Of a stretch of DNA of 64,000 nt, positions 18,580 to 53,419 are shown one piece after another. The first letter of the stretch is position 1. Each line of letters starts with the position of its first letter. The notes below the pieces were generated by a model. It was not told where the DNA came from. It made no database searches and saw only the letters and a program-made list of their open reading frames with translations. The DNA lies in the NCBI RefSeq assembly GCF_011777505.1, contig NZ_JAATJT010000002.1:434001-498000 (forward strand). The letters run 5' to 3'. The position numbers and the translations under genes are program-made. This DNA is from Gaetbulibacter sp. S0825 (GTDB lineage Bacteria; Bacteroidota; Bacteroidia; Flavobacteriales; Flavobacteriaceae).

Positions 18580-18676
18580 TAAATTTTTAAAGTTAAATAG
18601 TTGACTTTGGAATGGTTGTAACAAATAGGTTGAATGTTATACTAATAAGTTAAACGTTTAATTAAAAAGAAAAATT

Positions 18677-19000
18677 ATGATTCAGTATAAAGGAGCAATT
18701 ATATTAGGAGTTTTAGCTGGAGCAGCTGCAGGGATTTTATTAGCACCAGAAAAAGGAAGCCTTACCAGAGATAATCTTAAGAGAGAAGCAAAAGACATAA
18801 AAGATAAATTATCTAAGGATTTCAAAGAGGTTAAAGATGACTTATCTAAAACGGCAAAATCTGGTAAAAACACTTTTAAAAAAGAAATGAAAGACGTTGC
18901 CTCTAGGACAAGCCATAAAACAGAGCAAGCTATTATGTTTTTAGAAAAGCAATTAGCAATACTAAAAGAAAAAAATAAATCGTTTCAAACTACTAGCTAG
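18677..19000 (+). CDS. YtxH domain protein
   Basis: The 107-aa product has an N-terminal glycine/alanine-rich helix (GAIILGVLAGAAAGILLAPEKG) ending in the APEKG motif typical of YtxH-type small stress proteins, followed by a Lys/Asp-rich amphipathic helix (KDIKDKLSKDFKEVKDDLSK). These proteins sit in the membrane and are often induced by envelope or general stress. The stop codon TAG is embedded in a CTAG that is also the stop of the convergent GNAT gene, a 4-bp overlap. Confidence 0.8.
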   Translation: MIQYKGAIILGVLAGAAAGILLAPEKGSLTRDNLKREAKDIKDKLSKDFKEVKDDLSKTAKSGKNTFKKEMKDVASRTSHKTEQAIMFLEKQLAILKEKNKSFQTTS

Positions 19001-43848: not shown

Positions 43849-43883
43849 AGCGGTTTCCATGAATATTGGGAACCGCTTTTTTT
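43849..43883 (+). terminator. Intrinsic terminator of the FadL-like gene
   Basis: AGCGGTTTCC pairs with GGGAACCGCT (one G-T) around ATGAATATT, then a run of seven T. Confidence 0.85.
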
Positions 43884-44017
43884 ATTAAATGCTAAGCGTT
43901 GTAACATTTTTTAAAAAAAATATACTAATATTTTAAGCGGTTTATATTTTTAAAATCCTAATTTTTACCGAAATTGCTTATCTAAAAAAATGTTCAACCT
44001 TAACTACACGAAACAAT

Positions 44018-45358
44018 ATGTCTGATGATTTTGATTTATTAGAAACCAATTCTAACGAGAAACAAGAAAAAGTAGATGTAAATTGGGGAAAAGCTATCGA
44101 TACAATGAAATCGAAATTAGCTCAGGAAGACGACCCTGAAATGCGTCAAAAAATATTAAATGCTACATTGGATGATGTTGTTCATATGGCTGAAAAAGAC
44201 CGTACGTCTTTATTAGATGCTATTAAGGATCTTACAGATTACCAAGATGAAGTTGGAATTATTTTTGAAAACTTTTCCTCGTTAAATGGCGATGAACAGA
44301 AAATTATTGATAGTGCTATTAAGCGTTTAGAGCGTGCCAGAGTAGAACTTGAAGATGCTGAAAATAAACCAGATACTTGGTGGAATAACCTTTGGGGAAG
44401 AAAAAGCAAGATTAAAAAAGCACAAGACGAACTAAAAGCAGCTCAAAAATCTCGTGATGAAGCAGATAATAAAGCAAAAGCTTTATTTCAGCAGCGTATA
44501 GAAAATGCTGATGTACAAACATTATTAAACGAATTATCTTTTAAAAGTCAAGCAGCTGTTAAACGTTTAAAAGATCGTGAAGTAGAGATCAAAGAGGTTG
44601 AAGATAAACTTCAAGATGCCATTGTCGAAGCAACAAAAAACCATACTAAAGCTCTAGAGAAGAAGAAAGAAGTAGAAGGACTTTTAGAAGAAAAATATGC
44701 GCTTTTAAAACAAGCACGTCAAGAACTGGAAGAAATTGTAGATAAACAATCTGCAGATTATGCTCAAGCCATAGGAAAAGTGACGCAGTTAGAACAAAAA
44801 GTAGAAGAACTTGAAGGTTTGAAAAATGCATATACCACTTTAGCTGCCTCTAAAGACAGTTTTGTGCACAAGCACAACTTAACTATAAAAGTATTAACGT
44901 CATTAAGAAGCAATTTACAAACACATAGAGCCAAATTAAAATCTGACACCGAAGAGCGTTTAAAATATTACGATGGTTACGTGGTTGCATTAAAAGCACG
45001 TACAGATCAAGAGTTTGCTGCCATTTTAGAACATTTAGGTGTTAAAACAGATGAGCATATTGGTGAAACTTTAGCAGCAATGCATTCGGCTTCTGCTAAG
45101 GCTAGACAAGAAATGATGGATAATATTCCAGTGCATGAAAAAGTAATGCAAGGTGTATATGGTAGTTATGCTGAGGCGTTACAAGAAATTCGTGTGAAGG
45201 ATGCAGAAATTCAGAAGAACTTTGCTGACCGTTATGGCATCGATATGAAAGAGATTTTCGAAGAGTATTATAAAGCAGAAAACAATCCTCCTGCTGGAGA
45301 TGATGGAGGTGAAGGAGCAAGCCCTAAGCCAGAAGGAGACGACGATTTATTATCATAA
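44018..45358 (+). CDS. Cytoplasmic coiled-coil protein, first gene of an uncharacterised operon
   Basis: The 446-aa protein has no signal peptide or membrane segment. Residues about 85-310 are long, heptad-like charged helices (for example LERARVELEDAENKPD, EVEIKEVEDKLQDAIVEA and ARQELEEIVDKQSADYAQ). The tail is acidic and proline/glycine-rich and ends in EGDDDLLS. Similar coiled-coil proteins often receive automatic names such as microtubule-binding protein; this says nothing about the function. It heads nine co-directional genes and is followed by a hairpin terminator, so it is probably made in excess over them. TelA-like resemblance in the middle is too weak to assign. Confidence 0.75.
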   Translation: MSDDFDLLETNSNEKQEKVDVNWGKAIDTMKSKLAQEDDPEMRQKILNATLDDVVHMAEKDRTSLLDAIKDLTDYQDEVGIIFENFSSLNGDEQKIIDSAIKRLERARVELEDAENKPDTWWNNLWGRKSKIKKAQDELKAAQKSRDEADNKAKALFQQRIENADVQTLLNELSFKSQAAVKRLKDREVEIKEVEDKLQDAIVEATKNHTKALEKKKEVEGLLEEKYALLKQARQELEEIVDKQSADYAQAIGKVTQLEQKVEELEGLKNAYTTLAASKDSFVHKHNLTIKVLTSLRSNLQTHRAKLKSDTEERLKYYDGYVVALKARTDQEFAAILEHLGVKTDEHIGETLAAMHSASAKARQEMMDNIPVHEKVMQGVYGSYAEALQEIRVKDAEIQKNFADRYGIDMKEIFEEYYKAENNPPAGDDGGEGASPKPEGDDDLLS

Positions 45359-45362
45359 TAAT

Positions 45363-45391
45363 TTGTGCTTCTTTCGAGAGGCACAATTTTT
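45363..45391 (+). terminator. Hairpin with TTCG loop between the first and second genes
   Basis: TTGTGCTTCT (45363-45372) pairs with AGAGGCACAA (45377-45386) around a TTCG tetraloop, then five T. It has ten pairs including one G-T. As the next gene is co-directional, it is probably a partial terminator that lowers downstream expression. Confidence 0.75.
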
Positions 45392-45426
45392 CTTATTCAA
45401 TTTTTTAACCATTTTCTTAATAAGTA

Positions 45427-46482
45427 ATGTCTATTAACCACATTGTAACACCATTAGATTCTGCAGAACTCGATTCTAAAGAGCAATATGTGTTTTACCA
45501 TAAAATGGTAGATTTTACTTTAAAAGAACTCATAGTTAATGTTCAGCGTCAGCAAATATGTAATGAGAAAGAACTAATCTTTTTTAAACAATACTCTGAT
45601 TTGTTGCTGTATTCTATTGAAGCCATGCGAATTAAGTATATGTATGATGAAGAGGATAACATGAAAATTGATTTAACCGATTCTGGTTTTCCAAATTACT
45701 TAGAGTTTCGCTATTTGTTCAATGATTTATCATTAAGAGCTGAGTATTTGAATAAGCTAATTCCAGAAGAAGTATTAAAAAAAGAGTTTTTAGATACCTT
45801 AATGCGTAAAAAAGTACCAGTTAAGAAAAGCAAACTCTTTCAGGCTGCATCAATAGTGTATTATAAATCTGTTCAGCAGAAATTTATTTTTAATCGATTT
45901 GTCCAAGGCAAAATTATTTCGGCACCAAAGCATAGTCAAGGAGAGTTATTAACTAGCTGGAGTTTCTACGATGTATCACTTAACAGACCATTTATCTGCT
46001 TTATGTATTTCGATTATGATGGTCAAAAATTTCTTGATTATAAAGATAAAGTATATGAGGTTTTAAAAAACGTAGCAGATAGAAATATGTCTTTGGACAC
46101 GATGGCGTATGCGATAGATAGAAAGCTGCCAAATATTTTTCCAAAACATATCAAACGAATAGACTTAGGGCCTTTGCACAATGTATTTGCAAAGGATGAA
46201 AATGAGATTACACACGCAATTCTTGATAGCATTGGTAAAAAAGAAATCCCTTTAGAATCGTATGCTATATCCTTAAAAATTGACGAAGTCTTTTCTGGCA
46301 GTGAATTTAAGGAAGGCAGTTTTTTTAATAAACAAACCCTACAAAACTGGAGTGATGTTGTAAAGCAAGAATATGTATTTGCACCACATCGCATTATACA
46401 AATGCTCTATAATAAAACACCAGATATTATGAATATGTTGGCAAAACCACCAATTCAAATGGCTGATTTAAAAACAATATAA
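45427..46482 (+). CDS. Soluble protein of unknown function in the AAA+ operon
   Basis: The 351-aa product has no signal peptide or membrane segment. The first 150 residues are mainly helical (KELIVNVQRQQICNEKELIFF and others), and the second half is mixed with SWSFYDVSLNRPFICFMYFDYDG as a strand region. No catalytic motif is visible and I do not recognise the family. It stands between the coiled-coil gene and the AAA+ gene and is probably a partner of the ATPase. Confidence 0.7.
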   Translation: MSINHIVTPLDSAELDSKEQYVFYHKMVDFTLKELIVNVQRQQICNEKELIFFKQYSDLLLYSIEAMRIKYMYDEEDNMKIDLTDSGFPNYLEFRYLFNDLSLRAEYLNKLIPEEVLKKEFLDTLMRKKVPVKKSKLFQAASIVYYKSVQQKFIFNRFVQGKIISAPKHSQGELLTSWSFYDVSLNRPFICFMYFDYDGQKFLDYKDKVYEVLKNVADRNMSLDTMAYAIDRKLPNIFPKHIKRIDLGPLHNVFAKDENEITHAILDSIGKKEIPLESYAISLKIDEVFSGSEFKEGSFFNKQTLQNWSDVVKQEYVFAPHRIIQMLYNKTPDIMNMLAKPPIQMADLKTI

Positions 46483-46555
46483 AAGTAGTTCTCAGTCTCT
46501 CCAGTCCAACGTATTTAGAACTGTTGACTGCGACTGTAGCTGAACACTAAAACAT
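46483..46555 (+). other. Structured 73-bp intergenic spacer before the AAA+ gene
   Basis: The spacer has AGTTC and two CAGTC copies on its left (46487-46506) and GAACT with two GACTG copies on its right (46518-46536). These can pair in more than one way. No T run follows, so it is not a normal terminator. Confidence 0.35.
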
Positions 46556-48520
46556 ATGGAACACAACTCAACATTCCCAATAAAACAAAATGAGCTCGAT
46601 GCACTTCGTGACGAAGCGACGTCGTATATAAAAAGTGTACAATGGGAACAAGGTCAACGTGCAAAAAACAAAGAAAATAATGGTAAGGATGAATCCATTT
46701 TATTGTATTTATCAAGAGCTCAAGGAGGTAATGGAGGTGTTGAAGTCACCTCTGTATCTAAAACTATATTAGCATTAAAAAAGCGCTTGTTACCAGATTC
46801 TGTAGCAATTCCCATTCATTTAAATGAAACTTTATTTGCTGTTCAAGAGGGATTAACATTAGGAATTTGGATAAAAGACAGCTATTACGATGCTTCTGGA
46901 TTGTCTAGTTTGAGTGAACGTAAATCTGTTCTAGATAATGCTGGGAAGCGTGAGTACGAAAGTAAAATGCATACAGCAACTGCTTTTATGTTATTTGCAA
47001 CAGCATATAATATCCTTCATAATTTGCAACCACATGCTTCAGATGATTTAAGTGTGATGAAAAACAAGTTTGCGGGCATTCCCGAAGTGTCTTTTATGTC
47101 ACCTCTTAAAGGAACTGCTTGTGCTTTATATTATTACGATAAATATTTAAGCCATCCAGATATTGTAAAAACGGATAAAGATGTAATCGATTTTACAGTA
47201 GTATATTTTGAAGCACTAATTGATGAAATTCAATTACGCAAGAGTTCTTTGGAATACACTGAAACCATTCTCGACAGAACATATAAACTTGAAAATTCAG
47301 ATTTTGCCGTATCTGGTTGGGAGAATGTATTTGCAGGAGCAGCTAAAAGTGTAGAGTTTAATAAAATACAATTTGAACAAATAGTTGGTAACAGAGATGC
47401 CAAACATTTTGCTCGTCGTTTAACCGAACGCATGTTGAGCTACGATTTTGCAGCTCAAAAAAATCCATTTCAAGAATTAGGAGGTTTTATGCCTGTGTTT
47501 ATGGGGTACGGAATCCCAGGAACTGGGAAGAGTATGTTGATTGCCGCTATTGCTACACGACTAAAAGAACATTGTGATAATCTAGATATTCCATTTTTAT
47601 TTCATCCAATGCCTGATACGTTAATTAGTACATTCCAAGGTGGTTCTGCTGAGAAAATGGTCGAGTGGATGAAACCCTTACAAGACCCAACACGTTTAAT
47701 ATTTGCTCCAATTGATGATGCCGAAAACAACTTGCAAGAGCGTACTGCTCAAGGGGTTTCTGCGGGTGTCAAGGAAGTAATAGGAGTGTTTTTAAGATAT
47801 ACCGAAGGTGCTTATGCTGTAAACTATGGAAATAGCTCTATTGGGTTGTTTACTAACCTTCCTGAAATGCTAGATAAAGCAGTGATTTCTCGTGTTCAAG
47901 GACGATTTTTAATTGATGGAGCACGAACGGAACATGACTTTTTAGACCAAGATCATTTATGGTGGCGAAAATTGGATGATACCATGCCAGACTTTGTAAA
48001 TATGCAAGGTCCTGAAAATTATAGTTATTTGCAAGACCAAGGGTTGGCTAAAAATATGGGAGAAATCTTAAATGTTACAGATAAACCAACTGAAGAGCGA
48101 GTTTTTGAAGCCTATGATAAGGTAGAGAAGAACTTTAAAACAAATCAACATTTGTTTTATGCGAATTTATATAAGGAGATTCAAAAGATATTCCCGTTTT
48201 TCTCATCGCGTGATGTGAGAAATATTCAAAGTGCTGTATCACTGCGTTTAACTGATTTTGACTTGGAAGAAGATTGGTTTGAAAATCCAGAAATCTATTT
48301 CAAAAAGGATTACGATACCAAGTTTAATATGCTACAAGAATTGATGAGAGCGAATATGAAAGGCTTGGATTTCTCTGAAATTAGACGACAAGAAGTGGTG
48401 CGTTACTTAGACAATGTGGCAACCATTGCTGATACCGATTTTAAGCGTAAAGTAGATGCTAGAGTGAATCAATTAAATATTGATTTAGAAGCGAGAAGGA
48501 AGTTTGATAACTCTAAATAA
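46556..48520 (+). CDS. AAA+ ATPase of an uncharacterised operon
   Basis: The 654-aa protein has an N-terminal helical domain (about 1-300) with no known motif, then an AAA+ core. Walker A is GYGIPGTGKS (about 317-326). The Walker B position is LIFAPIDDAENN (about 381-392), so the usual DE is DD and a Glu follows two residues later. Sensor-1 Asn is in LFTNLPEM (about 434) and a candidate arginine finger is in SRVQGRF. The C-terminal domain (about 500-650) is helical. No membrane segment is seen. It is the energy source of the operon. The AAA+ call is strong, the family is not recognised. Confidence 0.82.
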   Translation: MEHNSTFPIKQNELDALRDEATSYIKSVQWEQGQRAKNKENNGKDESILLYLSRAQGGNGGVEVTSVSKTILALKKRLLPDSVAIPIHLNETLFAVQEGLTLGIWIKDSYYDASGLSSLSERKSVLDNAGKREYESKMHTATAFMLFATAYNILHNLQPHASDDLSVMKNKFAGIPEVSFMSPLKGTACALYYYDKYLSHPDIVKTDKDVIDFTVVYFEALIDEIQLRKSSLEYTETILDRTYKLENSDFAVSGWENVFAGAAKSVEFNKIQFEQIVGNRDAKHFARRLTERMLSYDFAAQKNPFQELGGFMPVFMGYGIPGTGKSMLIAAIATRLKEHCDNLDIPFLFHPMPDTLISTFQGGSAEKMVEWMKPLQDPTRLIFAPIDDAENNLQERTAQGVSAGVKEVIGVFLRYTEGAYAVNYGNSSIGLFTNLPEMLDKAVISRVQGRFLIDGARTEHDFLDQDHLWWRKLDDTMPDFVNMQGPENYSYLQDQGLAKNMGEILNVTDKPTEERVFEAYDKVEKNFKTNQHLFYANLYKEIQKIFPFFSSRDVRNIQSAVSLRLTDFDLEEDWFENPEIYFKKDYDTKFNMLQELMRANMKGLDFSEIRRQEVVRYLDNVATIADTDFKRKVDARVNQLNIDLEARRKFDNSK

Positions 48521-48529
48521 TAGCTAGTT

Positions 48530-49165
48530 ATGGAAGAAGAAGTAATTAACCCAATCGAAAAAAAAGAATCACAATTAGGTATACAAGATTATTTATCTAT
48601 TGGCTATGTTTTTCTATTGATTTTAGGTGTATTGCATCAAACCATTTATTATAATTTTCTAGGGGTTAATATTTTTGAGTATTCTTCGATTTTAGATGTT
48701 TTAATAAGCCCAGTTTCTGTAATTGCTGGGGATTTAAAGTTATTAATTGGTATAATTATATGTGTTGTGTTGGCTATTGGTTATGCTAAAGTATTACCTA
48801 AATACTATACTTGGTTAAGTAAGAAAAAGAAATACCAATCTGGAAAGAAAAAGGCTAGGTTAGATAAAGCATTGAATACATTTAAAACAGGCTCTAAACA
48901 GTTGGTATTTGTAATGATATCATTATACATTATTGGTGCGTTTATTGGGTTTGGTGTTGGTCGAGGTGGAAAAATAAAACAGAAAATAGAAAACGGTGAT
49001 ATTAAAATAACCCATCAAATAACTTTTAGCGATGGAGAAAGTCAAAAAATTACAATGTTAGGAAAAAACAGTTTAAATGTTATTTACGTAAAAGAAGGAC
49101 AAAAAGAAGTACTTGTTTCTCCAATTGAAGGAAATATTAAAACAATAAAAAAGATTGCTGATTAA
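48530..49165 (+). CDS. Membrane protein of the AAA+ operon (three helices)
   Basis: The 211-aa protein has three hydrophobic helices at about 20-45, 63-85 and 123-147. A basic cytoplasmic loop (KKKKYQSGKKKARL) lies between the second and third. The C-terminal 60 residues (ITHQITFSDGESQKITML...) form a beta-rich domain that the positive-inside rule puts outside the cytoplasm. Function unknown. The stop TAA shares a base with the next ATG (TAATG). Confidence 0.75.
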   Translation: MEEEVINPIEKKESQLGIQDYLSIGYVFLLILGVLHQTIYYNFLGVNIFEYSSILDVLISPVSVIAGDLKLLIGIIICVVLAIGYAKVLPKYYTWLSKKKKYQSGKKKARLDKALNTFKTGSKQLVFVMISLYIIGAFIGFGVGRGGKIKQKIENGDIKITHQITFSDGESQKITMLGKNSLNVIYVKEGQKEVLVSPIEGNIKTIKKIAD

Positions 49166-50400
49166 TGCAAAAACTAAAAACAGCAAATTTATATAGAAGC
49201 GAGCTCATTCCTGTAAGCGGGAAATTGGTTGAGAGTTATAATCTGTGTTTAGAAAAATTGGGCTTTAAAGCGACCAAGCTCAAAACCTTTTCTATTGATG
49301 GTTTGGGTTGGAGCCCAGAAATAGCCGAAGAGAAGAAAGACTTACAGTATCTTAATCATGGTGAGGCTAACCCTCATGGTATCATTATATCGCCTTTGCA
49401 AAAAGGAAAACCTGTATATGTGCCAACTCATACGTTTGATAGGGACATGATGCAATTTATCTTTAAGGAGCATGGAGATGCTATTAACGATATTACCAGA
49501 GATTGTGCTATTTGTATAGATTTCGACCAACACATAGATACGTTTTTTGGGCCATTAGATGTATTGAAATATGATACTGTTTCTATTAATTTTCATTTAA
49601 TAAATAACTTATTTCATATTCAAGAGGAGCAATTAGAACTAGTCGAAAAGTTTAATCAAGGCAATAATTTTGTTAATGAAACAATTCACCAAGAATTGCT
49701 TGATTCGGCAAAAAAACATGGCGATTTACGTCATCGAAAATTATACTTAAAGCCTATTGAATTTAAGACTAATTCTTTTTTTACCAAGGCTTTTGGCGGT
49801 ATTTATGTGTTGCGTGATTTTATTTCGCCAATTGTAGTCTTTCAAGATGAAGAAGCACATAAAGAAGCTATTAAAGATACAGTTCACGATGTGTTAATTT
49901 ACCATATTTCACAACCAGAATTGATAGATAAATTAAGAGACCACCTAATTATTGAATGTAACTTAGATGAGGTTGTAAAAGACAAGCGTTACGACCGTAT
50001 TAAAAAAGTGATGCTGTTTAATGAACTGAAGAAAACTGAGCATTCGTATAAAGATATTTTAAATGATAAAGTATTATTCCGTAGGTATTTAAACACCATA
50101 GATGCAAACGCTTTAAAGCGTGTTACAGGAGTAGAAATATACTTAGAACGGTTAGAGCGAAGCAATGCTTTTAAAATTGCCGATTTAGTTGACCAGGGCT
50201 TTTATTTTGCTTTGCATCAACCTCATTCATCGTTAGATGTAAAACAATACGATTTAATTTGGAGGCTTTTAGTAAATGTATCTCCAAAAGATGTGTTATT
50301 TCTGTATTGGTACGATAAAGAACAGTTTTATAAGAGTTACGAAGCTTGGAATGAGTCCTTCCAAGATTGGGTAATTGAGACCATTAGTAACAATATTTAA
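49165..50400 (+). CDS. Soluble protein of unknown function, coupled to the membrane gene
   Basis: The 411-aa product has no signal peptide or membrane helix. It starts MQKLKTANLYRSELIPVSGK, overlapping the previous stop. Motifs such as NPHGIIISPLQKGKPVYVPTH and YLKPIEFKTNSFFTKAFGG are unlike any enzyme I know. I think it belongs to a Bacteroidota-restricted DUF but cannot verify this. It lies in the centre of the AAA+ operon and may be an adaptor between the membrane parts and the ATPase. Confidence 0.7.
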   Translation: MQKLKTANLYRSELIPVSGKLVESYNLCLEKLGFKATKLKTFSIDGLGWSPEIAEEKKDLQYLNHGEANPHGIIISPLQKGKPVYVPTHTFDRDMMQFIFKEHGDAINDITRDCAICIDFDQHIDTFFGPLDVLKYDTVSINFHLINNLFHIQEEQLELVEKFNQGNNFVNETIHQELLDSAKKHGDLRHRKLYLKPIEFKTNSFFTKAFGGIYVLRDFISPIVVFQDEEAHKEAIKDTVHDVLIYHISQPELIDKLRDHLIIECNLDEVVKDKRYDRIKKVMLFNELKKTEHSYKDILNDKVLFRRYLNTIDANALKRVTGVEIYLERLERSNAFKIADLVDQGFYFALHQPHSSLDVKQYDLIWRLLVNVSPKDVLFLYWYDKEQFYKSYEAWNESFQDWVIETISNNI

Positions 50401-50446
50401 AAATTATAGACTAATTTTATAAAGAGTATTCACTAAAACATAAATT

Positions 50447-50986
50447 ATGACCATAGAACTCATAGTATTTATCTCAGCCATTTTATTTGGAGTATTACTT
50501 TATTGGAGAGAATCTAATGGTAATGGATTATATCGCTTCGTAAATAAGATTGTAAATTCTAAAGAATTGCAAATGAAAAAGGGTGACAGAACTGGATTTG
50601 TCTTTCAGCAAAAATTCTTGTTACGCTTGGTATATGTTGCGTTCCTATTTTTAATTGTGTCCTTAGTGCTACAATTTTTTACGCCGTTTAAGCCGTTTGG
50701 AAGCTACAATGGCGTTTCTACCTTTGCTTCTAGTGTTGTTGGAACTGTTATAGGTACTTATTTAGCCAATTTTGTACTAAAATCTGGAAAAATTGTGGAT
50801 GAAAAGAGCAATACTTTAACTGATATGGTTAGTGAAACTATTGAAAAAAGTAAAGAATTTCTAGATGATATCACTACTAAAGATGAGATAGATGATGCTA
50901 TTGAAGAAACACCTAAAGTAGAGGATACACCAAAAGAAGAAAAGAAAAGTGCTAGAGAACGCTTAAAAGATAAAGGGCTGATGTAG
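50447..50986 (+). CDS. Membrane protein of the AAA+ operon with acidic cytoplasmic tail
   Basis: The 179-aa protein has about three hydrophobic segments (IELIVFISAILFGVLLYW, LVYVAFLFLIVSLVLQFF and VSTFASSVVGTVIGTYLANFVL). The loop after the first is basic (NKIVNSKELQMKKGDR), hence cytoplasmic. The last 65 residues are charged, Glu/Asp/Lys-rich and probably disordered, ending in ARERLKDKGLM. Followed by the 68-aa gene after 1 bp. Confidence 0.72.
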   Translation: MTIELIVFISAILFGVLLYWRESNGNGLYRFVNKIVNSKELQMKKGDRTGFVFQQKFLLRLVYVAFLFLIVSLVLQFFTPFKPFGSYNGVSTFASSVVGTVIGTYLANFVLKSGKIVDEKSNTLTDMVSETIEKSKEFLDDITTKDEIDDAIEETPKVEDTPKEEKKSARERLKDKGLM

Positions 50987-50987
50987 T

Positions 50988-51194
50988 ATGAAAGGATTTA
51001 CTAAGTTTATGTTACTAGTAGTGATAATGTGTATATACTTGCTTATCATCAGAATTGTAGATACTAATTATGGAGATTTTTGGAATTTGGAGAGTATTTT
51101 AAGGTTAGCAATGCCACTATTAATAATACTCCTTTTTGGTTTCTCCATTAAATTTGATTTAAGAAAACTTAAGGAAGATAAAAGCAATGATTAA
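50988..51194 (+). CDS. 68-aa two-helix membrane protein of the AAA+ operon
   Basis: Two helices (FMLLVVIMCIYLLIIRIV and LAMPLLIILLFGFSIKF) with a short loop and a basic C-terminal tail. Overlaps the next gene by 8 nt (ATGATTAA), the same type of overlap seen in the DUF6090 array. No family recognised. Confidence 0.68.
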   Translation: MKGFTKFMLLVVIMCIYLLIIRIVDTNYGDFWNLESILRLAMPLLIILLFGFSIKFDLRKLKEDKSND

Positions 51195-52881
51195 AAAATA
51201 CTGGAATAAAGGAAAGAAGCAAAAAGTAATTACCATAATTGGTAGTATTGTGCTGCTATTACTATTATTCATTCTTCGTGATGAATACCAACCGTTTTTA
51301 TTATTTATTAGAAAATTCACTTTTGTCATCTTATTAAGCGGAATAATTCTGTTCTTTTTATTAAAAAAATTCAGACGAACACCCAGTTCTGGTAAACGCC
51401 TTGGTATTTTAGGTTTGTTAGTGGTAATCTTCGGAATAATTTACGTCGTTGGTTGGCATTATAAAATGTACGACTACATGAAAACCTATAATGTGTTTAA
51501 TGATTTAAATAAAGTTGAAATTCATGAGTTACCACTTACTCAAAACGAACGCATACAACCATTGCGCAATATTTTTTCCATGGCAAACGAATCTGTTGGT
51601 GAAACTAAAGATGTATCGTTGCCACATTTAGTAAGAGTCGATGGAGAAAACCAATGGACCATGGCTATTCAACCAACAGTAAAATATATTTGGCAACGAA
51701 TAAGCGATAATACCGAAGAAGTGTTTTCGGTGTCCAGTACAACCCCATTTCCGAGGTTTTCTAGTGAAAACAGAATACCTGTAACATTCTCCATTGGTGA
51801 ATCATTAAAATTTAGCAGAAACACCTATAATGCCGTGGTACAACGCTTCGGAATTGCTAAGCTGTTCTCAACAGAGCCTGGAGATGTGTTTTATATGAAA
51901 AATGATGAAGGTGAATGGGTTCAAGTCGTGAGCTTAATTAATTGGAAAGGTTTTTTCTTTCCATACCCAACGTTTGGTGGCGTGGTAATTATTGAAAATG
52001 GCGCACATGATTTTGGCGATTACGTAGAGCGTGTATTAATTGGTAAAGGAACTTTTGTTAGTCCAGAGGATATGAAAAATTATCCGTTTTTAACCAAACA
52101 AAATACCTTATCTGAAAAGGTATCACGCTTGCAAGCAGAATCTTTAAAATTTTTGGGAGGTTTTAGTGATCCGTTGCCTTGGAATATGGAAACTGCAGTT
52201 AAAATTCCAGATTTACCAGACGATCAAAATCAACAACCATTTGTTACCGATTTTAATTTTGAAGGTTCACCAACTGATGCTTATAGTGGTTTATACCATT
52301 GGTTTGGCTTAGAACCAGTAGGAGTAGAGCGCACAAGTTTAACTTTTAGTGTCTTTATTCCTGCAGATGGAACTGACAAATTGTATTATTTTGACCATGC
52401 AGCCAAAAAACAAGGATATGCAGGTGTGTCTGCAATGCCTTTAAAGATAATTGAATCCCGAAAAGAATTTGATTGGTCTGTAAATAAGCCTGTAGAGTTT
52501 AGACCATATATTAAAGATATCGCTGGTAGAAAACGAATGTTTTTCTTAGGGACAGTGTCTGCAGTAAAAGAAGATTCTGGAAATTTTGATGGATCTGCAA
52601 CACCTGATTTAGCATTGGTTGATAGTGAATATCGTGATGTGGTTTGGATAGATGTAAAACGTCCAAGCACTTGGGATAAGACTGTGTATGATCAATTATC
52701 AGAGGCGTGGCGATCTAGTGAAGGTATTGGGTATTATTATGAAGAGAAACCAACCGTAGATATTGACTTAATTAGAGCAGTAACCGATACTATTAAAAAC
52801 ATTCCAAATACTAGCAAAAACCAAGAACAAATAGACGCTTTGCAGCGCAAGATAGATTCTTTAAAAAACAGTAGTAACTAA
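51187..52881 (+). CDS. Large membrane protein with extracytoplasmic domain, AAA+ operon
   Basis: The 564-aa protein has three N-terminal helices (about 13-32, 41-60, 73-92). The basic N-terminus and the basic second loop (KKFRRTPSSGKRLG) place the large C-terminal region of about 470 residues outside the cytoplasm. That region is beta-rich, with PTVKYIWQRI, FGGVVIIENGAHDFGDYVERVLIGKG and DVVWIDVKRPSTWDK as landmarks. Its end has a coiled-coil-like helix (QEQIDALQRKIDSLKNSS). Domain family unrecognised. It is the largest external component of the operon. Confidence 0.75.
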   Translation: MIKKYWNKGKKQKVITIIGSIVLLLLLFILRDEYQPFLLFIRKFTFVILLSGIILFFLLKKFRRTPSSGKRLGILGLLVVIFGIIYVVGWHYKMYDYMKTYNVFNDLNKVEIHELPLTQNERIQPLRNIFSMANESVGETKDVSLPHLVRVDGENQWTMAIQPTVKYIWQRISDNTEEVFSVSSTTPFPRFSSENRIPVTFSIGESLKFSRNTYNAVVQRFGIAKLFSTEPGDVFYMKNDEGEWVQVVSLINWKGFFFPYPTFGGVVIIENGAHDFGDYVERVLIGKGTFVSPEDMKNYPFLTKQNTLSEKVSRLQAESLKFLGGFSDPLPWNMETAVKIPDLPDDQNQQPFVTDFNFEGSPTDAYSGLYHWFGLEPVGVERTSLTFSVFIPADGTDKLYYFDHAAKKQGYAGVSAMPLKIIESRKEFDWSVNKPVEFRPYIKDIAGRKRMFFLGTVSAVKEDSGNFDGSATPDLALVDSEYRDVVWIDVKRPSTWDKTVYDQLSEAWRSSEGIGYYYEEKPTVDIDLIRAVTDTIKNIPNTSKNQEQIDALQRKIDSLKNSSN

Positions 52882-52933
52882 CTTAGAACTGTAACAAAAG
52901 CCCTCTAATTCAGACTTATAAGTAAAGTTCATT

Positions 52934-53419
52934 ATGGGTTATATGGGATTTGGTATGCAGAAATGGATTTACTCAAGAAATCCTAGAAAACCTTTTGCTA
53001 AAGGTAGAATACCTTCGTTTACCTCTATAAATACTTATGAAAGAACATTTAAGGCTCAACCCTCTAAATCATTGGGTAAGTTCTATATATACATTAGCAT
53101 TCTCCTTTTGGGTTTATTTTTTAGTATAATTTATTTGAAGAAAGATGAGTTTTTGATTCACTCAGCAAAAATTAATAATCAAATAAATGAGCAAGCTATT
53201 CAAATTGATAAAGACGCTTTTAGATTTTTAATGAGTTCTGGAATGCATCGTCTAGAATCTAGTAATATAAAAGGGGCGTATTCTGAATTTAAACTAGCAT
53301 ACAACATATATCCAACAAACATTGAGCTTCAGGAAATTATGTTTCATACCTTAAGTATTTTATGCTATAATGATGTAAAGTTTTGTCAAGAGCTAGATGA
53401 TTTTACTCAAAAAGAATGA
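52934..53419 (+). CDS. Small membrane protein with C-terminal TPR-like region
   Basis: The 161-aa protein starts MGYMGFGMQKWIYSRNPRKP, then a basic stretch, one transmembrane helix (FYIYISILLLGLFFSIIYL, about 49-67) and a helical C-terminal segment with RFLMSSGMHRLESSNIKGAYSEFKLAYNIYP, which looks like a TPR pair. The arrangement of a short cytoplasmic N-terminus, one helix and an external TPR suggests an assembly factor. It may belong to the AAA+ operon, 52 bp after it. Confidence 0.65.
   Translation: MGYMGFGMQKWIYSRNPRKPFAKGRIPSFTSINTYERTFKAQPSKSLGKFYIYISILLLGLFFSIIYLKKDEFLIHSAKINNQINEQAIQIDKDAFRFLMSSGMHRLESSNIKGAYSEFKLAYNIYPTNIELQEIMFHTLSILCYNDVKFCQELDDFTQKE

Follow-up and report, generated by a model that had tools for sequence, protein, structure and literature searches.

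A conserved AAA ATPase gene block of the Flavobacteriaceae and its predicted membrane-stress promoter

Layout of the block and family assignments

The window analysed in this study is a stretch of 64,000 nt from Gaetbulibacter sp. S0825 (assembly GCF_011777505.1, contig NZ_JAATJT010000002.1, positions 434,001 to 498,000 of the forward strand), and the subject of the analysis is a block of nine genes, here termed A to I, which occupies positions 44018 to 53419 on the plus strand. An earlier inspection of the letters alone (the sequence-only reading) had described nine co-directional genes, several of them overlapping or nearly adjoining, and the coordinates confirm this description. The products comprise 446, 351, 654, 211, 411, 179, 68, 564 and 161 amino acids, respectively; tight junctions are found between C and D (9 bp) and between F and G (1 bp), D and E overlap by 1 bp and G and H by 8 bp, and the remaining gaps measure 68 bp (A-B), 73 bp (B-C), 46 bp (E-F) and 52 bp (H-I).

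Between the upstream FadL-like gene and the block, inspection of the sequence revealed a hairpin resembling an intrinsic terminator, GCGGTTTCC...GGAACCGC, followed by a T-run (43849..43883, plus strand), so that gene A is probably the head of a new transcription unit. Downstream of this hairpin lie an exact match to the predicted extracytoplasmic function (ECF)-type promoter pattern TGTAACA-N16-TACnnATA (P1, 43900..43930, plus strand), which ends 87 nt 5' of gene A, and a second block of conserved sequence, ACCGAAATTGCTT ... TGTTCAAC (43966..43998, plus strand), located between the predicted promoter and the start codon. The genes that follow encode a coiled-coil protein (A, 44018..45358), a soluble protein (B, 45427..46482), a classical AAA ATPase (C, 46556..48520), an accessory membrane protein (D, 48530..49165), a DUF6638 protein (E, 49165..50400), a membrane protein with helices and a charged C-terminal tail (F, 50447..50986), a small accessory membrane protein (G, 50988..51194), a further membrane protein (H, 51187..52881) and a one-helix membrane protein (I, 52934..53419), all on the plus strand. 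Gene I possesses its own copy of the predicted promoter with one mismatch (P2, 52890..52920, plus strand), ending 13 nt 5' of it, and would be a co-regulated neighbour.

Eight of the proteins (all but G) were scanned against Pfam, NCBIfam and PHROGs, and five (A, B, C, E and H) also against PADLOC. Only two assignments exceeded a curated cut-off among the eight, namely the AAA domain of C (Pfam, 34.1 bits against a cut-off of 21.2), as the sequence-only reading had proposed, and DUF6638 in E (Pfam PF20343, 112.1 bits against a cut-off of 27), a family also met by the E proteins of Vibrio (199.1 bits) and Sinorhizobium (256 bits); the matches below cut-off were to AAA domains or coiled coils, or had the appearance of chance. 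The description of two soluble proteins as unrecognised consequently holds for B, which matched no family in the library scans, and is superseded for E. Profile comparison of B with E detected no relation, and DUF6638 had no literature match among open-licence papers. Protein I, previously labelled TPR-like, matched no Pfam family at an E-value of 1 or below, TPR included, and the label is unsupported. The three N-terminal hydrophobic helices expected of H were found, and its remainder of approximately 470 residues, which had been described as extracytoplasmic, is probably periplasmic judging by the positive loops; the AlphaFold model of H, with a mean predicted local distance difference test (pLDDT) score of 39.1, is of insufficient quality to bear on this placement. 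None of the NCBIfam families of type IX secretion (T9SS) or gliding exceeded its cut-off among the eight scanned proteins, and the matches to defence systems discussed below are weak and confined to single domains, in agreement with the earlier view that the block belongs to no recognisable system.

Conservation within and beyond the Flavobacteriaceae

One hundred loci were mapped, comprising the best 80 of 340 relatives obtained from a scan of named genomes and 20 other regions from the same family; the titles of four of the 80 give an order or class only, and the rest name Flavobacteriaceae or genera taken as belonging there. Homologues of C are present in all 100 loci, which were fetched with C, and those of A, B, E, F and H in 98, 99, 98, 95 and 94, respectively. 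A six-gene core, A-B-C-E-F-H, is complete and in the same order in 92 of the loci. Other neighbours are more variable: a flanking gene termed z occurs in 66 loci, I in 28, D in seven and the upstream FadL-like gene in four, and small open reading frames (ORFs) in the F-H gap of eight loci form a family of which one alone matches G clearly (E 4e-4). Among the incomplete loci, four (L110, L150, L152 and L154) are short or stem from contig ends, L070 is missing only the end of H, a gene that is complete in the genome concerned, and L081 carries a large insert that splits the core and leaves E just outside the fetched stretch; L080 looks similar, and homologue mapping places all six core genes in L076. 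The block of nine is not one conserved unit: A, B, C, E, F and H form the core and D, G and I are accessory, I having a promoter copy of its own, and the single nine-gene operon of the sequence-only reading cannot be maintained as one set.

For the core, conservation of the gene neighbourhood, the absence of which the sequence-only reading had named as its refutation, is borne out at the level of genomes as well. In a set of 60 Flavobacteriaceae genomes (own genome included, kinship ignored in the counts), strong relatives of C were found in 22, three further rows being weak AAA-domain matches, and A, C and H are present in the identical 22 once a single extra weak row for H is dropped. Across a sample of the phylum, C was detected in five of 395 genomes, own included, all of the same family, with 29 more rows being weak (21 bits or less). 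The flanking gene z is matched in 51 of the 60 genomes; its close relatives (at least 59% identity) occur in 23, of which six are without the block, and five block-carrying genomes have no close z.

Median identity to the proteins of the window amounts to 87% for C, 86% for A, 76% for H, 74% for B, 67% for E and 56% for F, to be compared with 96% for EttA (74 loci), 90% for a fumarase-like gene (11 loci) and 73% for HutI (29 loci), yardsticks from the same loci that were named by sequence reading. The coiled-coil protein A is as conserved as its ATPase, which would suggest ordered contacts along the length of A.

Sets combining an AAA protein with a coiled-coil protein occur in antiphage defence, and PADLOC models gave weak matches to C (IetA, E 1.2e-4; 6.8e-7 for the Vibrio C) and to A (JetC, E 2.6e-5). 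These matches, however, span the AAA domain or the coiled-coil stretch only, the NCBIfam equivalog IteA_antiphage yielded 13.9 bits for C against a cut-off of 510, and the gene set differs from that of IetAS, with no peptidase family, S8 included, among the eight block proteins scanned by Pfam. The block moreover resides mostly in one syntenic place, as EttA or z lies beside it in 79 of the 92 complete loci; the other 13 show neither of these usual flanking genes within the stretch, and L075, L078, L137 and L148 are among the loci with clearly different flanks in which the block is still intact. Its conservation is housekeeping-like, with one strong match per genome, and no relative was detected in the viral contigs searched. 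A role in defence against phages is thus improbable.

The gaps between the core genes are filled by variable small genes, the commonest of which is a Nudix gene of the YffH/AdpP family (NudK-like) 3' of C, present in 69 of the 100 loci (for example L123, 11967-12551). This recurrence might be taken to indicate that the AAA module serves a Nudix-linked metabolite pathway by sensing or repairing a compound akin to nucleotide sugars or ADP-ribose. In the window the same slot is occupied by D; a tblastn search of the window's own genome, performed without a positive control, identified no YffH/AdpP-type Nudix gene, 31 of the 100 loci, including some truncated ones, showed none, and the annotation of the core loci in Vibrio and S. 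meliloti lists none either. A Nudix-linked pathway is accordingly the least probable of the explanations considered here. In many loci the B-C and E-F gaps hold four-helix-bundle-like genes (25 ORFs) and GIY-YIG-like genes (11 ORFs), both named by sequence reading, and these recurrent small genes resemble small mobile insertions.

The survey of other phyla covered plasmid, phage and viral collections. Ten records of the plasmid collection, from Vibrio, Sinorhizobium, Shinella and Rhizobium, contain an AAA protein that is 27-28% identical to C, with coverage of at least 80% in nine; several of these 'plasmid' records are megabase replicons. Five of the ten loci were fetched, and the gene order A-B-C-E is kept in all five; in S. 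meliloti, C and E are separated by an endonuclease-like gene and a transposase. Profile alignment of the flavobacterial with the proteobacterial A proteins gave a probability of 96.8 (E 2.1e-10), by which the A proteins of the two groups are homologous, and A-B-C-E would be the older core. An eleventh match, on a Burkholderia plasmid record, covers only 20% of C and adjoins an S8 peptidase gene, and was excluded from the core loci. A DUF2333 membrane protein follows E in S. meliloti, one Sinorhizobium strain and Shinella; the one literature match for DUF2333 was a paper on a type VI secretion system.

Some further observations were made on these replicons. A Rhizobium leguminosarum plasmid (L181, 8989-11343) has kept an A homologue and DUF2333, with B, C and E absent there, S. 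meliloti having A-B-C-E-DUF2333. In two Skermanella plasmids and one Rhodobacteraceae plasmid DUF2333 lies near a sigma-70/anti-sigma pair, which is suggestive only. In S. meliloti a fragment bound by ChvI falls within SMc02733 (PMC3687685), a locus number that may be close to the module. The record L171 (CP090106.1), labelled as S. meliloti plasmid pSymB, is 3.7 Mb in size and chromosome-like, including anthranilate synthase, and its label may be wrong.

Promoter and predicted regulon

In 83 of 96 stretches upstream of A (the window and 95 loci), a TAC lies at a distance of exactly 23 nt from the start of TGTAAC; the second most frequent offset was seen 15 times. The full pattern TGTAACA-N16-TACnnATA, which like the spacing was derived from these same upstream data, is present exactly in 68 of the 96 stretches and with at most one mismatch in 87, compared to 0.0 and 0.2 in shuffled sequence. 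At this tolerance it also precedes 14 of 28 homologues of gene I and three of 94 of F, and it was not found upstream of B, C, D, E, H or z. Across the 80 named loci, all of them stretches with the block at their centre, the exact pattern gave 64 matches and the reversed control one; of the 64 sites, 57 lie before A and four before I. Upstream of A the sigma-A consensus (TTG-N18-22-TAnnTTTG) is no more frequent than in shuffled sequence, with one match in 97 stretches and 2.0 in shuffled ones. The TGTAAC box resembles the -35 elements of ECF promoters. The second conserved block is represented by CGAAATTG in 91 of 97 upstream stretches, the commonest gap between GAAATTGC and TTCAA being 14 nt; relatives carry AACGAAATTGCTT and then TTCAAC, usually 14 nt on, between the predicted promoter and the start of A.

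The pattern is not restricted to the block. With at most one mismatch the window contains three matches, before A, I and a YtxH gene, where 0.21 would be expected, and none of 100 shuffles reached three. The last of these is exact (18617..18647, plus strand) and is followed, with the ATG 29 nt 3' of the match, by a gene for a YtxH-family protein of 107 amino acids (18677..19000, plus strand; Pfam YtxH, 60 bits), which is predicted to be co-regulated with the block as part of the same regulon. The entire genome holds four exact sites (reversed control, one), located before A, the YtxH gene, a gene for a J-domain protein and one for a TraB/GumN protein, each 19-87 nt 5' of the ORF.

Fifteen selected genomes, of which ten carry the block and five do not, were then searched with the exact pattern, which yielded 42 sites against nine for the control. 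Together with the own genome this amounts to 46 sites, of which 43 were examined, the remaining three lying just before A by their coordinates. Downstream of the 43, A was found four times. A sigma gene followed by a gene for a membrane protein of approximately 212 residues was found seven times, in seven genomes (L209, L211, L222, L224, L231, L233 and L237); as two of these genomes (G001 and G007) are without the AAA block, the regulon appears to be wider than the block. A membrane protein located about 250 nt on and then a flotillin-like Band 7 gene follow four sites in four genomes, and another Band 7 protein two sites in two genomes. YtxH was found three times, TraB, TM2 and ABC-transporter-like proteins twice each, GIDE-like proteins (just below the Pfam cut-off), HEAT-like proteins (below cut-off) and small membrane ORFs resembling gene I by eye also twice each, and J-domain, AIM24, DUF4870, YbjQ and LEA-like proteins once each. 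Pfam checks covered one or two members per family, and the others were assigned by eye. Regions 2 and 4 were confirmed by Pfam in the two sigma genes tested, the start codon of the sigma gene being provisional; Pfam gave no hit to an anti-sigma or NfeD family, the presumed anti-sigma factor and an NfeD-like gene having been named from their position. The LEA-like protein (L235) is repetitive and rich in lysine and alanine, and the TM2 proteins of the predicted regulon (L200 and L214) start, by eye, with a similar stretch.

Membership of the block in this predicted regulon is well supported. Since its promoter is common to flotillin and other membrane-stress genes, the block is probably a device for coping with envelope damage, and regulon membership in conjunction with the membrane proteins H and F supports an envelope role.

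Proposed role and comparison with known systems

In addition to its AAA domain, C possesses an N-terminal domain of approximately 260 residues that lies outside known families. Its Walker A motif, an IDD Walker B, an [FY]QG[GK]S stretch and R...R[FW] are kept in all 105 C homologues. The [FY]QG[GK]S stretch presumably occupies the position of pore loop 1 of classical AAA proteins, and R...R[FW] that of their arginine fingers. The profile of C matches VCP-like, proteasomal and Pch2 ATPases, with Vps4 chains among the matches in the PDB (E ~1e-5). Both the invariant aromatic pore-loop-like motif and the kinship with these ATPases would suit stress-induced protein quality control, in which C, served by A, B and E as adaptors, would unfold or extract membrane proteins or damaged ones and no scaffold of A would be remodelled, as would the J-domain gene that shares the promoter in the own genome. 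However, the block proteins include no peptidase family among the eight scanned, and a purely adaptor-like A leaves its ATPase-like degree of conservation unexplained, for which reasons quality control is considered a rather unlikely explanation, albeit one that deserves more weight than the other alternatives.

Protein A is marked at both ends. Of 98 A proteins, two of which are N-terminally cut, 95 show a DDFDLLE-type motif at the N-terminus and 97 a DDLLS-type motif at the extreme C-terminus, after a variable linker. A search of the own genome with a tail-motif pattern, which failed to match A itself, returned one match, equal to the control. The hydrophobic-basic turn WWNNLWGRK of A, which aligns where the proteobacterial A has a shorter GIF-plus-lysine stretch, could touch the membrane. 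A classical AAA protein beside a helical one, together with the ESCRT/Psp theme already known from bacteria (PMC11237479), raises the alternative of a true ESCRT-III/Vps4-like (Psp-like) pair with A as a remote PspA or Snf7 homologue and C as its Vps4. This would accommodate the Vps4 chains matched by C and the Vipp1 chains that resemble the A hairpin in structure (Z 10.3-10.4). However, dozens of unrelated coiled coils score level with the Vipp1 rows, the 11 rows of a PDB profile search with A include neither ESCRT-III nor PspA, and at an E-value of 1 or below Pfam detected neither PspA nor Snf7 in A of the window, Vibrio or Sinorhizobium and no MIT domain in C. Such a pair is hence unlikely, if somewhat less so than defence.

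We favour the reading that the block constitutes an envelope-stress AAA+ machine, ECF-controlled, which remodels the coiled-coil protein A at the inner membrane, and assign it a probability of roughly 0.42. An ECF sigma factor, freed on membrane or envelope stress, would switch the module on; the ring of C would grip a protein and pull it through its pore, A being the most likely client with its near-invariant acidic end motifs as possible handles; and ATP would serve to build, disassemble or move a scaffold of A at the cytoplasmic side of the inner membrane, while B and E would act as adaptors and the anchor and sensor functions would fall to F and H, H reaching the periplasm. That C pulls on A is suggested by AAA biology in general and by the end motifs of A. 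The energy-driven envelope complex of the sequence-only reading survives in part: an ATPase-driven module is retained, as is an envelope link through the promoter shared with flotillin/Band 7, YtxH, TM2 and sigma genes, and the extension to nine genes as one set is given up. The more specific proposition that A and C are a new, non-ESCRT-III pair, an AAA-driven cytoskeletal or membrane scaffold, with an A-B-C-E core in two phyla that in the Flavobacteriaceae is tied to the envelope by F and H and controlled by an ECF membrane-stress sigma factor, is more speculative and rather unlikely.

Several observations weigh against the reading we favour. Every one of the 105 C homologues has Asp, where Glu is usual, as the second acidic residue of Walker B, so that ATPase turnover is not assured. 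The predicted all-helical fold of A, with a long hairpin at approximately residues 166-307, is of low confidence (pLDDT 59.7), and 785 of 797 aligned chains are structural neighbours of this hairpin at Z of at least 2, many of them unrelated coiled coils. That the proteins interact or form one complex, that A polymerises or acts as a scaffold, and that it is the client of C are suppositions. Outside the Flavobacteriaceae, H and DUF2333 showed no relation by profile comparison, and an ancestral membrane partner is consequently not established; the annotated Vibrio locus names no membrane protein directly beside the core, hypothetical genes lying upstream, and in R. leguminosarum TP16 a sigma-70 gene is found 3' of E instead of DUF2333. 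As to the promoter, its assignment to an ECF-controlled membrane-stress regulon draws on the families of the putative members and not on expression data. In the own genome the exact pattern was not found at any sigma gene. To judge from the control, chance may account for roughly one in five of the 42 sites, and six of the 43 examined precede other genes, not identified as stress genes. An exact site lies before A in six of the ten block genomes and is missing there in G034, G044, G009 and G012, the last of which, like G021 (without the block), contains no exact site at all, and seven sites occur in four of the five genomes without the block.

The proposed role would provide a concrete and testable place in cell physiology for a conserved module in which no part but the AAA domain belongs to a functionally characterised family, and the promoter defines a predicted membrane-stress regulon of marine flavobacteria that joins flotillin, Band 7, YtxH and TM2 proteins with the AAA block. 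No description of such a module or promoter was found among the papers listed by searches of open-licence literature. Among known systems, TelA and the Ter proteins, helical cytoplasmic proteins with a proposed role in stress, bear a likeness to A. The identification of A as TelA was rejected, given that the A proteins of the window, Vibrio and Sinorhizobium have no such Pfam match and that hhalign returned a probability of 0.1. Pfam found no TerD family in the eight block proteins scanned, and tblastn with the block proteins found none of them in the TelA neighbourhoods of four Bacteroidota genomes, three of which contain TerD-like genes by their start motif.

The SM6 class of ECF-type promoters in Flavobacterium psychrophilum is associated with Band 7, an ECF sigma/anti-sigma pair and an ABC ATPase; it differs in having a CGT box at -10 and T9SS genes, the present pattern being TACnnATA, and identity of the two is not established (PMC9723704). 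In Bacillus subtilis, a stress-induced YdjI/PspA-SPFH complex unites a cytoplasmic ESCRT-III homologue, an SPFH protein and membrane proteins (PMC8581546). The block is akin to it in that SPFH genes share its promoter, and differs in that the abstract of that paper mentions no AAA protein, the SPFH genes lie elsewhere in the genome and A is not PspA by sequence. With ESCRT-III/PspA and the Vps4 AAA protein, as in the Psp and archaeal Cdv systems (PMC11237479), the block has in common an AAA protein beside a helical cytoplasmic protein, a stress setting and membrane partners; it departs from them in B, E (DUF6638), F and H, for which we know of no counterpart, and in having no detected PspA/Snf7 or MIT domain. 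None of the known systems tested matches the block; ESCRT-III/Psp comes nearest to it in kind, with no sequence link detected, and if C does indeed remodel A, the two would add to ESCRT-III/Psp another bacterial family in which ATP drives the remodelling of a scaffold.

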